Source: Sedimentisphaerales bacterium (lineage in GTDB: Bacteria > Planctomycetota > Phycisphaerae > Sedimentisphaerales > Anaerobacaceae). From it: a DNA stretch of 38,019 bases. The translations under genes were made by a program, and so were the position numbers. Positions 5,417-27,187 of this stretch are shown here, in pieces. Under the pieces are notes generated by a model. It was not told the origin of the DNA. It saw only the letters and a program-made list of their open reading frames with translations, and did no database searches. Within the stretch, counting starts at the first letter, position 1, and every line of letters begins with the position of its first letter. The stretch covers positions 1 through 38,019 of the forward strand of contig JANQHJ010000022.1 of NCBI GenBank assembly GCA_028282745.1. Direction: 5' to 3'.

Positions 5417-6733
5417 TTAATTGGCCGGGTTTTGTGTGATGCGGCGGGTGAGCTCGTTCAATGTGGCGAGCATTTTGGGATCGTTTTCCTGGATATCACC
5501 GATCTTATTACAGGCGTGCATGACTGTGGTGTGGTCCCTGCCGCCAAGATGCCCCCCTATTTCGCCAAGGCTGTGATGTGTCAGGCTTCTGGCAAGGAAC
5601 ATGCAAATCTGGCGGGGTATTGTGATGCTCTGGCTTCTCTTTTTGCTCTGTAGGTCTGAGAGGCGAACGCCGTAATGGTCGGTGACAACCTCAATGATAT
5701 CAGTGATACTAACGTTCCTTGTAGAATCGAATTCATCGCCAAGGGCCTCTTTGGCAAGTTCGAGAGTGATCTTCTGGCCGTTGGTCAATGCCATTGCCTG
5801 AAGGGTTGTGAGAGCCCCTTCGAGTTCCCTGATATTTGCCCGGACTTTCCTTGCTATGTATTCAGTAACCTCGTCAGAGACTTCCAGGCCTCTTAGATTG
5901 GCCTTTTTCTGCACAATGGCTACCCTGGTGTCATGACTGGGAGGATCGACCCGTGTGACAAGGCCCCAGCTGAATCTACTGATAAGTCTTTCCTCAAGGG
6001 AAGGGATATCAGAAGGGCTGGAGTCAGCACTTAGGATAATTTGTTTGCCGTTGTTATAAAGAGCGTTGAATGTGTGAAAGAATTCTTCCTGGCTCTGCTC
6101 GCGGTCGCTGAGAAACTGCACATCATCAATGACCAGTGCATCTACTTTTCTAAACTGGTTCTGGAAGCTGGAGAGCTTGCCCTGTTCAATAGCACGGATG
6201 AAGCGGTTAACGAATTCTTCACAGCTTAAAAACTCGATAACGGCATCATTGTGAGCTTTTCTTGTTGCGTGACAAAAAGCGTGGAGCAGATGAGTTTTTC
6301 CAAGGCCACTGTTACCATAGAGAAAAAGCGGATTATATGTATCGCCAGGTGACTGGCTGACAGCAACACAACTGGCATGAGCCAATCTGTTACTTGGGCC
6401 GACTACGAATGTGTCAAAAGAATAGTCAGGATGTAGTTTGAAGCTTTTCTGGTCAAGAGTTTTTGGAGGGCTCGGTTTTTTGCCTTCATAAACCGAGAAA
6501 TCGACTGTAACTAAATGGCCGGTTATCTGCTGGGCGGCGAGGGTGAAACTTCTGGTACAACTGTCCTGCAGGAACTGTGCGGTAGCTTCGTCCGGACAGC
6601 CTATTACGAGCGCCCCTGCATCGAGGGCTAGTAATTGCAGCTTTTCAAACCATTTGCGTGTGTTACCGGGATCCAGAGTCTTTGCTCGTTCGACAATATC
6701 AGCAAATAAATCTTCTATCAGTTGTTTCGCCAA
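5417..6733 (-). CDS. dnaA: Chromosomal replication initiator protein DnaA
   Basis: A 438-residue DnaA. Domain I is at about residues 1-80, the AAA+ domain has Walker A GNSGLGKT at 140-147 and Walker B VIDDVQFL around 201-208, and the C-terminal DNA-binding domain IV carries the signature GGRDHTTVMHAC. It binds DnaA boxes as an ATP complex and melts the origin. The start is a TTG at 6733. No in-frame ATG is near, and a GGGGAG ribosome site lies 7 bases upstream, which supports this start; TTG may lower expression. The linker domain II is short. It is convergent with mnmE. The 394-base region upstream, shared with ftsY, holds its likely promoter and a pair of tandem 10-mers. Confidence 0.96.
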   Translation of the reverse strand: MAKQLIEDLFADIVERAKTLDPGNTRKWFEKLQLLALDAGALVIGCPDEATAQFLQDSCTRSFTLAAQQITGHLVTVDFSVYEGKKPSPPKTLDQKSFKLHPDYSFDTFVVGPSNRLAHASCVAVSQSPGDTYNPLFLYGNSGLGKTHLLHAFCHATRKAHNDAVIEFLSCEEFVNRFIRAIEQGKLSSFQNQFRKVDALVIDDVQFLSDREQSQEEFFHTFNALYNNGKQIILSADSSPSDIPSLEERLISRFSWGLVTRVDPPSHDTRVAIVQKKANLRGLEVSDEVTEYIARKVRANIRELEGALTTLQAMALTNGQKITLELAKEALGDEFDSTRNVSITDIIEVVTDHYGVRLSDLQSKKRSQSITIPRQICMFLARSLTHHSLGEIGGHLGGRDHTTVMHACNKIGDIQENDPKMLATLNELTRRITQNPAN

Positions 6734-7127
6734 CGCCGGTCTCCCCTGATACTATTTTATAACAACAAATTGCACTAATTAGCACAAATTATCTTTTATA
6801 CGAATCAACCTTTACAAACTATTGCTTGTTAGCCGCTTAGGCGATCCAAGCTTAAATAATGCTATAAGATAAAGATTGCCGCGGCCTGATGCCCCGATAA
6901 ACATCATCCAGACAAGACTCAGGCCTCGCAATGACAGTTCTAAAAAGCACAATAAAGGCTTGTTGTAAGCCTAAATCCCTAACGAAAGCCAAGTAAAATA
7001 TTAAATCAAATTTCATGATTTTGTCAAAGGAAAAGGCTGAGATTCGGCAAAAAAGAAGGCAGCGATATTACTTGAAATATTAGCGGAATTTTGAGAAACT
7101 AACGAGCCAATAAATTAAGGAATAATA
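6734..7127. other. 394-base dnaA-ftsY divergent intergenic region
   Basis: This gap carries the divergent promoters of dnaA and ftsY. Next to dnaA lie two tandem near-identical 10-mers, GCACTAATTA (6772-6781) and GCACAAATTA (6782-6791), in a very AT-rich stretch. A palindromic repeat follows at 6874-6936. I searched for the 9-mer TTATNCACA and its complement and found no perfect copy, so there is no direct support for an origin here although dnaA is adjacent. No ORF or RNA gene was recognised. Confidence 0.5.
6874..6936. repeat. Palindromic repeat, ATTGCCGC...CGCAATGAC type, copy 1
   Basis: The arms GATTGCCGCGGCCTGA and TCAGGCCTCGCAATGAC are nearly perfect reverse complements, separated by about 31 bases. 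The outer motif matches the second element at 8083-8118 (GATTGTCGC...CCTCGCAATGA). The two therefore look like members of one REP-like family placed on either side of ftsY. The internal sequence differs completely, as expected if only the stem ends are conserved. Confidence 0.6.
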
Positions 7128-23930: not shown

Positions 23931-24039
23931 ACGCTAAGTTTGGTTAAAAATTTTTCCTGTGTAAGAGTTTGAAAAATATGGACATAGGAAAGTAAGAGTC
24001 TGTATAGTTTAAAAAAACATGTAAATTTGAATTTTTCTC

Positions 24040-24068
24040 TTGTTGCAAGTTGTTGCGCGCGTTAAATT
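24040..24068 (+). promoter_or_regulatory. Putative promoter of the riboswitch operon
   Basis: TTGTTG (24040-24045) and TAAATT (24063-24068) are separated by 17 bases and lie about 30 bases before the start of the cobalamin aptamer. This is where a sigma-70-type promoter should be. Confidence 0.5.
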
Positions 24069-24100
24069 AAGAGTGTTCTTTGGGAAATCAATAAAATGAC

Positions 24101-24292
24101 TTCAGGTCTTCAAACGCAAATGTGTTTGAGGATAATTTTAAAGGGAACTCGGTGAAAATCCGAGACGGTCGCGCCGCTGTGAGCGATGCTCCGGTCAATG
24201 CCGGAAATCCGCGAAACGTTATCCCACTGTCATATTGACGGGAAGGGGCTTCGTGGTAGTCGCAAGTCAGAAAACCTGCCTGTAGTTAGCTG
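24101..24292 (+). promoter_or_regulatory. Cobalamin (B12) riboswitch aptamer
   Basis: The conserved parts of the cobalamin riboswitch appear in the right order: an opening CAGGTC, AAAGGGAACTCGGTGAAAAT, then CCGAGACGGTCGCGCCGCTG followed by TGAG, the B12-box region CCCACTGTC with GGGAAGGGG after a short loop, and the closing GCAAGTCAGAAAACCTGCCT. The opening CAGG can pair with the closing CCTG as the basal helix. By established knowledge, binding of a cobalamin such as adenosylcobalamin turns off the genes downstream. An intrinsic terminator about 90 bases beyond is consistent with transcriptional control. The first genes downstream are an exported PEP-CTERM protein and a surface protein, not a known btu or cob gene. 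Confidence 0.93.
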
Positions 24293-24384
24293 ACAATATT
24301 AGTGTTCTCGCGATTGGAACGCAGCTATCCGGCTGATGCCGCTCTTAAGAAGAAGCAAACTCGGCCGAATGAACAGGACGATTT

Positions 24385-24421
24385 AAAACCGTCATTCCTC
24401 TCGCGGAATGACGGTTTTTTT
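24385..24421 (+). terminator. Intrinsic terminator after the cobalamin riboswitch
   Basis: A 14-base-pair stem, AAAACCGTCATTCC with GGAATGACGGTTTT, closes a 6-base loop and runs into seven T. It lies about 90 bases beyond the aptamer and 218 bases before the first gene, where a riboswitch expression platform is expected. I could not find a convincing antiterminator pairing. The core GTCATTCC...GGAATGAC also resembles a widespread intergenic repeat. Confidence 0.8.
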
Positions 24422-24638
24422 ATTGGCATTATCGGACCTGGTTTTCAGGCCCAATCAACATTGAAAGGAGATAAAGGGCATAAAGGGATTTGCAGTCCAA
24501 CATAAAAAAATAAGAGCAATAAAAATCGAGAGAGAAGGAATTACAAGCGGCATTTAAATAAGCCCGCGCAAAATTCAAAGATTATTGCTCCCGTGAATTT
24601 TAACAACAATTGAATTTTTTTTGAAGAGGAGAGTGAGT
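24422..24638 (+). promoter_or_regulatory. Structured leader before the PEP-CTERM gene
   Basis: No ORF is convincing here. Two inverted repeats compete. GAGCAATAA (24514-24522) pairs perfectly with TTATTGCTC (24582-24590). AAAATTCA (24570-24577) pairs perfectly with TGAATTTT (24594-24601), placing the first repeat's 3' arm in its loop. An inner GCGG/CCGC hairpin lies between. TTTTTTGAAGAGGAG (24617-24631) holds the ribosome site and recurs identically at 37948-37962. Confidence 0.45.
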
Positions 24639-25160
24639 ATGGCTTCGGAGAAGGTGACTCGGAGGAGGGTGTATGAATTTGCAGTTTTTGTATTAAGTGT
24701 TTCAGTTTGTTTTGCAGTACCTATTGAAGTTGGAGACGGCAATAGCAGCGCTCAACTTTATATTGAATGGAAAGACGGATTTATCTTGGAATATTCCGTC
24801 AGCTTTGAATCGGCAAGCATAACCGGCCTTGAATTATTCGATATTGTCGAGGCTGAAACAACGCTTGAAACAGTTAGGGAAGACTTTGGTTTTGGAATTT
24901 TTGTAGATGGCATTAGTTACGAAGACCACAACAATATTGGCTTCGGAGGAGGCGACGACTGGTGGCATTACTGGATTAACAACGATGACGGCCAGGGCTG
25001 GAAAAGTCCCGCTTATGGTGTCGCCGACCGTATACTTTATGACGGTGACTCAGACGGTTGGATCTACGGCCACGGCGGGGAACCAATCCCAGAACCGGCA
25101 ACGATCGCATTATTTGCCATTGGTGCCTTGGTATTTCGCAAACGATGCAGGAGAACGTAA
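24639..25160 (+). CDS. PEP-CTERM protein with transcobalamin C-terminal-like (DUF4430) domain
   Basis: A 173-residue exported protein. An N-terminal hydrophobic signal (about 11-26) is followed by a domain at about 60-145 that matches, in my reading, the C-terminal beta domain of transcobalamin/intrinsic factor (DUF4430 type). The parallel runs from the LELFDIVEAE helix to FGFGIFVDGI, the aromatic strand DDWWHYWINN and the closing GVADRILYDGDSDGWIYG. It ends in a PEP-CTERM tail: PEP at 151-153, a hydrophobic helix and RKRCRR, which directs exosortase-type sorting to the surface. GAGGAG lies 7 bases before the ATG. Its place behind a cobalamin riboswitch supports a corrinoid-binding role. That role is inferred; the domain call is from pattern memory and needs a profile search. 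Confidence 0.75.
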   Translation: MASEKVTRRRVYEFAVFVLSVSVCFAVPIEVGDGNSSAQLYIEWKDGFILEYSVSFESASITGLELFDIVEAETTLETVREDFGFGIFVDGISYEDHNNIGFGGGDDWWHYWINNDDGQGWKSPAYGVADRILYDGDSDGWIYGHGGEPIPEPATIALFAIGALVFRKRCRRT

Positions 25161-25195
25161 TACAACAAATGTATATCTCACCACAACGTATGGAT

Positions 25196-25215
25196 GGGGC
25201 TGTAGCTACAGCCCC
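25196..25215 (+). terminator. Hairpin between PEP-CTERM and dockerin genes, possible attenuator
   Basis: GGGGCTGTAGCTACAGCCCC is a perfect 20-base palindrome that folds as an 8-base-pair stem with loop AGCT. A T-rich but interrupted run (GTTCATTATTTTATT) follows. It lies 35 bases after the PEP-CTERM stop and 30 before the next start, so it could lower expression of the downstream genes. Confidence 0.55.
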
Positions 25216-25245
25216 GTTCATTATTTTATTGATAGTGATTACCTG

Positions 25246-26364
25246 ATGTTTAGAAATTATTGTATATATGCCGCTGTGATGCTGTTAATTATCGGCTTTG
25301 ATTCTACAGCCTATAAGTATGACCCTAACGATTTTGCGATGGAAGTTGTCGACTACGTTGAGGGCACGGATATGGATGTAGATTATATCGACGGTAATGA
25401 TTTCAATAACCCTAACAACGCACTGGGCAGGCCCACCATTGATACAACAGGTGACGGTTGGTACATAACACCATGGGATCAGAATGTGCCGGTTGTGAGC
25501 GTTTATGCACCTTTTAGAGCCTATGAGATGGTTTCAGTAGGCTTGGGCGGGCGGCTAATCTTGAAATTCAACCATAATGTCTCAGACGATGAAAATAATC
25601 CACACGGTATAGATTTTATAATTTTCGGTAATGCCCTGCAGGAGATCGGCGGTGAGGATCCTTGGCTTAATGGAGATCCAAACAATTTTACGATAGACTC
25701 TAATGATGTAATAGAAGATGACGGCTGGGTATGGGTCAGTCAGACAGGTGATATTAACGAGCCCAATGATTGGTATAAGTTCCCTGCTAATCATTTCGCT
25801 GACAGGTGGGCTCCTACTTTCGGCAGGATTTATGATCCGTGTAATCCTGACACCAATATCGGCACATGGAACCTGTGGTGGGGTGAGCCTACCAATCCAC
25901 TGATACCGCTGGCCCCGAACCTTACACCGGATGATTTTATGGGTGAGACAGTGGCGTATATGTCACAAGTTTACGGAAAATCAGCTGGAGGATCGGGATT
26001 CGATCTGCAGTGGCTTGATGCCAACGACTATAATGACTTGGCGGTTGACCCCAATACGGGGCGTAAATGGATAAGATACATTCGGATCGAGGATGATGGT
26101 TACTATGTACCAGAAGTAGATGCTGTCTCGGATGTGGCTTGTTGCGGTGACTACAAGCACCCGTTCCCGGCTGGTGATATAGATAAAAACTGCCGGGTTA
26201 ATTTCTATGACCTTAAGCTTTTGGCAGACTACTGGCTCTACGACATAACTGGGCCGGGGCAGCCAGCTAATGACGCTGACATTTATGATGATGACGAAAT
26301 AGACTTCAAGGATTTTTCAATATTGGCCCAAACCTGGTTGATGTGCACGTGGCAATGTCAATAA
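25246..26364 (+). CDS. Secreted surface protein with C-terminal dockerin-like repeats
   Basis: A 372-residue exported protein. A signal peptide (about 1-22) precedes a beta-rich domain at about 25-300 with the elements SVGLGGRLILKFNHNV, GIDFIIFGNAL, DDGWVWVS, WYKF and, at the end, WIRYIRI...VPEVDAVSDVA. From memory this order matches 'cell surface protein' families found in B12-riboswitch loci of Bacteroidetes and other groups; unverified. Two dockerin-type calcium loops end the protein: GDIDKNCRVNFYDLKLLADY (309-328) and NDADIYDDDEIDFKDFSILA (342-361), each followed by a short W-L helix. No strong ribosome site precedes the ATG at 25246; the frame opens earlier, but upstream starts would overlap the preceding gene and the hairpin. 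Confidence 0.75.
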   Translation: MFRNYCIYAAVMLLIIGFDSTAYKYDPNDFAMEVVDYVEGTDMDVDYIDGNDFNNPNNALGRPTIDTTGDGWYITPWDQNVPVVSVYAPFRAYEMVSVGLGGRLILKFNHNVSDDENNPHGIDFIIFGNALQEIGGEDPWLNGDPNNFTIDSNDVIEDDGWVWVSQTGDINEPNDWYKFPANHFADRWAPTFGRIYDPCNPDTNIGTWNLWWGEPTNPLIPLAPNLTPDDFMGETVAYMSQVYGKSAGGSGFDLQWLDANDYNDLAVDPNTGRKWIRYIRIEDDGYYVPEVDAVSDVACCGDYKHPFPAGDIDKNCRVNFYDLKLLADYWLYDITGPGQPANDADIYDDDEIDFKDFSILAQTWLMCTWQCQ

Positions 26365-26392
26365 GTACGCTCGATCAAGGAGGATAATAACC

Positions 26393-27187
26393 ATGAAGAA
26401 CAAAGGCTTTACTCTAATAGAGTTACTTGTTGTTATATCAGTAATCGCAGTGCTGATGTCGATGTTGGTGCCCTGCCTTGGTATGGCCCGTAAGAAATGT
26501 CAGGCTGTTAGCTGTCAAAGCAATTTGAGGCAATTCGTTTTCGCGGCACAGACATATGCGGCAAATAACAATGACTTTTATCCACCGAGCCGAATAAGAA
26601 CAACAGCAGACGAAGGTAAAGATATCTTTTGGGATTTTATACACTTCGAGACATCAAGCAGCAGTTCAAATGCTCAAGGAGCAGGTGGCACGCCACAGGC
26701 GGTAATTACCGAGCCGGGTTTGCTCTGGCTCGGAGATACAATTCAAAAAGTACAGCAATGTCCTGTATATAAAGGTTTGTCGAACACACCTTACGATCCT
26801 TTCACAGGTTACAATTATAACACCAGCTATATAGGGCATTACAATCCGGACAGACGAATATATACCTCTAAAGTAACACAAGTTAGAAGAGCAGATAATT
26901 GCATTATATTCGGTGATGGTGAATTTTATAGTGGAGCGAATAAATTTATGCGTTCACCGTTCAAAAGCCCAAAAGATGGGTTTTCTTTTCGCGAGGGAGG
27001 AACACAAGGATTCAGGCATAATGAGAAAACCAATATAGCCTGGTGTGACGGGCATGTTAGCTCTCAAAAAGAATACTATACCGAGACACTTCCTAAAGGT
27101 CAGAAAAAAATCGAAAAGCATAACAAAACAGCGCAGGTCAAGACAGGCTTTATCTCTGCCGACAATAGTGCTTATGATTTGAAATAA
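26393..27187 (+). CDS. Type II secretion-like pseudopilin, H-X9-DG type
   Basis: A 264-residue prepilin-like protein. KGFTLIELLVVISVIAVL at residues 4-21 is a type III prepilin signal: cleavage after the glycine and methylation at F, with E at position 5 of the mature protein. A C-terminal H-X9-DG motif (HNEKTNIAWCDG near residues 212-223) is the hallmark of a pseudopilin family greatly expanded in Planctomycetota and Lentisphaerae. Mature function is unknown; members are thought to form surface or periplasmic pseudopili. AAGGAGG lies 9 bases before the ATG. It starts 28 bases after the dockerin gene, so it probably belongs to the riboswitch operon. Four cysteines in the mature part may pair. 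Confidence 0.88.
   Translation: MKNKGFTLIELLVVISVIAVLMSMLVPCLGMARKKCQAVSCQSNLRQFVFAAQTYAANNNDFYPPSRIRTTADEGKDIFWDFIHFETSSSSSNAQGAGGTPQAVITEPGLLWLGDTIQKVQQCPVYKGLSNTPYDPFTGYNYNTSYIGHYNPDRRIYTSKVTQVRRADNCIIFGDGEFYSGANKFMRSPFKSPKDGFSFREGGTQGFRHNEKTNIAWCDGHVSSQKEYYTETLPKGQKKIEKHNKTAQVKTGFISADNSAYDLK

Follow-up and report, generated by a model that had tools for sequence, protein, structure and literature searches.

A candidate riboswitch-controlled cassette for corrinoid capture at the surface of Sedimentisphaerales planctomycetes

We analysed a 38,019-nucleotide stretch of DNA from a Sedimentisphaerales bacterium (hereafter the window), which is the complete contig C107 of a 2.57 Mb draft genome that is 94% complete. 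Between positions 24040 and 27187, a cobalamin riboswitch is followed by three genes on the forward strand that encode a transcobalamin-like PEP-CTERM protein (gene 1), a BtuH-like dockerin protein (gene 2) and a pseudopilin (gene 3). This cassette very likely captures corrinoids at the cell surface. We are confident, with some reserve, that it works as a system for capturing corrinoids on the outside of a planctomycete, one that is apparently unable to make the corrin ring.

A transcobalamin-like protein in the first position

Gene 1 (24639–25160, plus strand; ATG at 24639, stop at 25160) encodes a secreted protein of 173 amino acids. As an initial annotation of this DNA had claimed, it ends in a PEP-CTERM tail (PF07589, 24.1 bits versus a cut-off of 20.7), and an exosortase is present in the same genome (G000:C48:16247–17023, E = 2.7 × 10−57). 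Searches of the core against Pfam, NCBIfam and PDB sequences returned zero matches, and the DUF4430 hidden Markov model (HMM; PF14478) was unmatched in the gene 1 protein, in 13 relatives and in the whole genome. The case for gene 1 therefore rests on comparisons of fold and profile. An AlphaFold 2 model built from 54 homologues (predicted local distance difference test (pLDDT) of 92.3; predicted template modelling score of 0.87) was compared with the PDB using Foldseek. The matches at ranks 1–17 were all transcobalamin, intrinsic factor, haptocorrin or 3u7z, a bacterial DUF4430-type protein, at a probability of 1.00; the next group, the superantigens, had a clearly lower probability. The order of strands and helix is consistent with the topology of the transcobalamin beta domain (PMC11107200). 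The likeness to the C-terminal domain of transcobalamin and intrinsic factor that had been proposed from the sequence is thus borne out by the structure check. The gene 1 profile also aligned over its full length with 19 DUF4430 sequences of other planctomycetes (hhalign probability 92.6, E = 4.7 × 10−7), and two unrelated cassette families used as controls reached 0.6 and 0.1. Profile–profile homology accordingly assigns gene 1 to the DUF4430/SLBB superfamily. The model consists of a single beta-grasp domain and lacks the alpha6/alpha6 barrel. The human transcobalamin beta domain (TC-beta) binds cobalamin by itself, and TC-alpha and TC-beta made apart assemble upon cobalamin (PMC5599065).

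The family is consistently tied to cobalamin riboswitches. A profile search of 161 genomes of the order yielded 47 full-length gene 1 places outside the window, 45 of which lie immediately behind a cobalamin riboswitch on the same strand; the other 2 are cut by a contig end. All six gene 1 loci in a second collection were linked in the same way, so that, counting the window, every testable place (52 of 52) is linked, and 17 lower-scoring places are linked as fully as the best ones. The profile was built on riboswitch-linked members, and very distant unlinked relatives could escape it. Linkage in relatives had been set in advance as a check on the initial annotation, and it proved to be conserved throughout.

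The riboswitch in the window is complete, as originally described. The aptamer (RF00174; 24087–24297, plus strand) scores 90 bits against a gathering score of 31.5 (E = 3.6 × 10−21) and spans the full-length model (positions 1–189). The terminator that had been reported is also there (24385–24418, plus strand; a 14-pair stem and T run, −21 kcal/mol, z = −7.25) and is presumed to be the expression platform. The three genes follow with the short gaps that had been noted, 85 bases between genes 1 and 2 and 28 bases between genes 2 and 3. For the proposed promoter we obtained no confirmation: the best sigma-70-like site (10/12) is at 23979–24008, outside the 24040–27187 stretch, and such sites are no commoner in the DNA (11) than in shuffled sequence (7.8 ± 3.3).

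A BtuH-like second protein

Gene 2 (25246–26364, plus strand; ATG at 25246) encodes a secreted protein of 372 amino acids, with a core at about residues 22–305 followed by C-terminal dockerin repeats (Dockerin_1, 23.4 bits versus a cut-off of 22.9, which is marginal). A longer open reading frame for this gene (24907–26364) was rejected as overlong, with a spurious start and an overlap with gene 1 in another frame. The AlphaFold 2 model of the 284-residue core (pLDDT of 94.1) is mostly beta, and its sole significant Foldseek match in the PDB is BtuG1 of Bacteroides thetaiotaomicron (8blw_B, E = 1.3 × 10−7), a protein that has a BtuH domain at its C-terminal part (PMC10404256). Because no further propeller or BtuG entry occurs among the matches listed, the match is most likely to this BtuH domain. 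An independent test set consisted of 18 proteins from the B12 operon region of a B. finegoldii plasmid (L197), of which the gene 2 profile matched BtuH alone (hhalign probability 93.9; all others ≤2.6); 20 shuffled versions of BtuH reached at most 0.7. Asn399 of BtuH2 touches the B12 phosphate (PMC8941943). In the hhalign alignment this residue corresponds to Asn129 of gene 2 (codon at 25630–25632, plus strand), and the position is Asn in 56 of 58 homologues; most homologues also have an aromatic residue at the position of Trp511. On the strength of these comparisons, the gene 2 core and the B12-binding domain of Bacteroides BtuH are homologues, and gene 2 is therefore a second likely binder, more than a partner. 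The description of gene 2 as a secreted dockerin partner in the initial annotation stands as regards the dockerin repeats and falls short as regards its role.

A modular cassette across the order

We surveyed 41 riboswitch loci in 36 genomes and found the cassette behind 37 of the riboswitches. The first slot is occupied by a transcobalamin-like protein in 18 cassettes, by a DUF4465 protein in 13 and by a propeller or another arrangement in 6, and a BtuH-like protein is present in all but one (36/37). The pseudopilin is found as the third gene in 32 cassettes. In eight loci (L040, L047, L050, L051, L052, L061, L067 and L068), genes 1 and 2 form a single fused gene. The DUF4465 alternatives match B12-bound PDB structures (9hmu, E = 1 × 10−43; 9fct, E = 5 × 10−37). 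Such proteins, also known as BtuJ, bind B12, and one from a member of the Phycisphaerae, Mucisphaera calidilacus, is among those shown to do so (PMC13398666, PMC12751083). For the propeller variants, 'BtuG-like' is offered only as a suggestion, because the single-protein variant in L066 has no match in searches of PDB sequences. Other families of the class also have cassette pieces behind riboswitches, and homologues of gene 2 are almost restricted to the class. A second riboswitch in the genome under study leads a full copy of the cassette (L032, G000:C33).

The tails are exchanged in L046, L049 and L070, with PEP-CTERM on the BtuH-like protein and dockerin on the propeller partner, which suggests that one protein per tail type is required; we place no weight on the BtuH label of the dockerin-tailed propellers in these loci, which the dockerin portion of the profile may have produced. 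A small gene that resembles ATP pyrophosphatases ('SGGKDS' motif; by eye similar to diphthine-ammonia ligase) follows the pseudopilin in L054 and L071, and lies beside btuF in L164 (about 6420–7124). By eye, modC-, nifB- and nifE/nifN-like genes are found 3.4–10.8 kb past the riboswitch of L032, and the organism may be capable of nitrogen fixation. Among the riboswitches that do not lead the cassette, that of L037 heads an operon of cobalamin salvage, btuB and exb genes, and the loci L041 and L062 are truncated or unassigned. The riboswitch of L034 (G038:C21) stands ahead of a gene resembling anaerobic ribonucleotide reductase and an apparent cobalamin-independent methionine synthase, in what looks like a typical regulon of B12-independent isozymes.

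Corrinoid supply and the outer membrane

CbiC, a marker of corrin-ring synthesis, was found in none of 41 genomes, and corrinoids must therefore be imported. A BtuC-like permease is present in 39 of these genomes, and in the genome under study BtuF-, BtuC- and BtuD-like genes are located on contigs C90 and C68. The btuF, btuD and btuC genes directly follow the cassette in L035 and L036, as do cobT, cobS and btuFDC in L056. No cassette includes a gene for an outer-membrane channel. The plug domain of TonB-dependent receptors (PF07715) went undetected in 18 of the 41 genomes, which are metagenome-assembled and possibly incomplete. Fourteen of the 18 bear the cassette (G001, G009, G011, G012, G014, G017, G019, G020, G023, G025, G026, G029, G030 and G033), and five of these 14 are at least 95% complete. 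The genome under study does have plug proteins; the two receptors examined match another receptor family above BtuB. The receptor of L037 is a clear BtuB.

The pseudopilin and its neighbour

Gene 3 (26393–27187, plus strand) encodes a protein of 264 amino acids that matches N_methyl (33.6 bits) and the H-X9-DG family (TIGR04294, 19.8 bits versus a cut-off of 19), in agreement with its first identification as a pseudopilin. The H-X9-DG motif is invariant in the pseudopilin set (n = 28 sequences), the tail is conserved (GF(I/L)SxDNSxYDLK) and the N terminus is similar to those of ComGC and GspG. A comF-like phosphoribosyltransferase gene (PF00156; 27214–27969, plus strand) begins 26 bases past gene 3 and is not counted in the cassette. 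It follows the cassette in 18 of 37 cases, and is missing from the C33 copy and from the btuFDC-linked copies. A competence role for the pilin–comF pair was set aside because the pilin persists where comF is absent. Fibre-associated uptake of macromolecules has a precedent in Planctopirus and Gemmata, planctomycetes of another class (PMC5394234).

Proposed mechanism

We propose that when B12 in the cell is low, the riboswitch would let transcription proceed past the terminator, as its family and the terminator itself suggest. Two secreted binders would then be made, the gene 1 product anchored by way of its exosortase-processed PEP-CTERM tail and the BtuH-like gene 2 product carrying a dockerin tail. 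Each probably binds corrinoid, and since the domains are fused in relatives, the two probably cooperate, perhaps gripping a single corrinoid as the halves of transcobalamin do. More tentatively, the pseudopilin would probably be a component of a fibre or pseudopilus outside the cell, serving to display or move the cargo. Corrinoid in the periplasm would pass to BtuF–BtuCD, whose genes lie apart from the cassette in this genome and share its operon in three loci of relatives. A bolder version, in which the PEP-CTERM/dockerin pair holds the corrinoid outside the cell and a fibre of the pseudopilus or of crateriform structures carries it to the periplasm for BtuFCD, so that outer-membrane import is independent of BtuB, is a speculative proposal that we consider rather doubtful.

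Weighing the evidence

Several observations count against surface corrinoid capture by this cassette. Pfam sequence HMMs fail to recognise the core of gene 1, and its Foldseek matches have modest E values (5 × 10−4 to 2 × 10−2) and template modelling scores of 0.5–0.62. Foldseek gives no matched range on BtuG1 for gene 2, and BtuH2 itself (7BIZ) is not among the 50 matches listed; Asn399 is the sole BtuH2 contact that is clearly kept, and the Trp577 loop is not. Cohesin (PF00963) was found in 4 of 41 relatives and not in the genome under study, and a dockerin–cohesin bond is therefore unsupported. Genes 1 and 2 are parted by a terminator-like hairpin (25190–25221, plus strand; 14 pairs, 7 G–C, a loop of 4 and a weak T tail), which may be an attenuator and could set how much gene 1 is made relative to genes 2 and 3; the initial annotation does not list this hairpin. 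The BtuF and BtuD matches of this genome fall under the NCBIfam equivalog cut-offs, and its btuC is divided over two contig ends. Finally, corrinoid binding by the gene 1 and gene 2 families is predicted from sequences and models. This last point also speaks for a reading in which the riboswitch is real and the proteins bind another ligand, such as a glycan, haem, cobalt or a peptide, being regulated by B12 for another reason; an earlier study predicted that the superfamily of the transcobalamin-like beta-grasp domains binds several soluble ligands (PMC1796856). We regard this as very improbable, given that the slots of one cassette are filled by unrelated folds for which B12 binding has precedents (TC-beta, BtuH, BtuJ/DUF4465 and possibly BtuG-like propellers), and that gene 1 is exclusively riboswitch-linked.

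The corrinoid could instead be bound for retention, in a matrix trap or store that withholds it from neighbours or holds it close to the colony, while uptake takes a separate path. PEP-CTERM proteins are usually tied to matrix and exopolysaccharide, the operon in the window has no transporter and an outer-membrane channel is missing throughout the cassettes. This alternative is unlikely, given the transporter genes directly after the cassette in L035, L036 and L056, a riboswitch class whose usual targets are uptake and salvage genes, and a lack of CbiC that makes import essential. A greater share of doubt attaches to the pilin: genes 1 and 2 may bind B12 while the pseudopilin, together with comF, is part of a locus for DNA uptake or type II secretion and its position is incidental. 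The frequency of comF after the cassette and the ComGC/GspG-like N terminus fit such an origin, which we nevertheless judge to be the lesser prospect, because the pilin occurs in most cassettes and is still third in L032, L035, L036 and L056, where comF is absent. Capture of corrinoids at the surface remains the reading that we favour.

Relation to known systems and implications

The closest parallel is the Bacteroides system of BtuG, BtuH and BtuJ with BtuB–BtuFCD (PMC10404256, PMC8941943, PMC12751083; B. finegoldii L197). Both are under cobalamin-riboswitch control and have several surface B12-binding domains per operon; gene 2 is a homologue of BtuH, BtuJ/DUF4465 replaces gene 1 in 13 of 37 cassettes and BtuFCD lies downstream in some loci. 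Unlike the Bacteroides lipoproteins, the cassette proteins have PEP-CTERM or dockerin tails in place of lipid anchors, and the cassette adds a transcobalamin-like alternative binder and a pseudopilin. It has no BtuB, no TonB plug was detected in 14 genomes that bear it and no PKD domain was found in gene 2 using Pfam. The contrast with BtuG and BtuH drawn in the initial annotation is smaller than was claimed, because relatives carry BtuH-, BtuJ- and propeller-type domains in this cassette. It still applies to how the proteins are anchored, to the use of a transcobalamin-like binder as one choice, to the pilin and to the fact that a recognisable BtuB is often missing. With animal transcobalamin, intrinsic factor and haptocorrin, gene 1 shares the fold of the beta domain, the half that binds cobalamin first. 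The cassette differs from them in that the alpha6/alpha6 barrel is absent, the partner has a BtuH-like beta fold and identity is about 13–15%.

Burroughs et al. (2007) predicted surface scavenging of B12 by transcobalamin-like domains in bacteria that lack its synthesis, and had already noted the prokaryotic transcobalamin-like SLBB/DUF4430 clade in planctomycetes (PMC1796856). The proteins described there have Gram-positive anchors, toroid fusions and CbiO/CbiQ transporters, unlike the cassette; PEP-CTERM, BtuH/BtuJ exchange and a pilin are not among the architectures given in the sections consulted, and the paper never mentions the word 'riboswitch'. Exosortase-type tails on DUF4465 proteins have also been recorded (IPR013424 in 88 of 824 sequences, counted in 2025; PMC12751083). 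B12 binding, as proposed here for the cassette, was already reported for 'Pan' of M. calidilacus (PMC13398666). The available sections of these two papers do not describe the cassette, its planctomycete riboswitch, the BtuH-like partner or the pilin. We found no earlier description of the cassette in the open-access literature, the scope of our search, which excluded subscription papers. These planctomycetes probably trap B12 at the surface in a previously undescribed way. What is new is the modular riboswitch-controlled cassette, the recognition of gene 2 as BtuH-like, the way in which binders are swapped or fused, a pseudopilin that stays constant and the presence of the cassette in genomes in which no plug was detected.

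One planctomycete operon would unite the beta domain of animal intrinsic factor and transcobalamin with BtuH and BtuJ of gut Bacteroides, lineages that have been considered separately. The cassette provides a testable function for two unnamed protein families and a candidate means of B12 uptake for Gram-negative cells that seemingly lack BtuB, and it suggests a concrete cargo for planctomycete pilin-like proteins, which are little understood. Because B12 exchange limits many aquatic and sediment communities, a class-wide capture system of this kind would be ecologically relevant.

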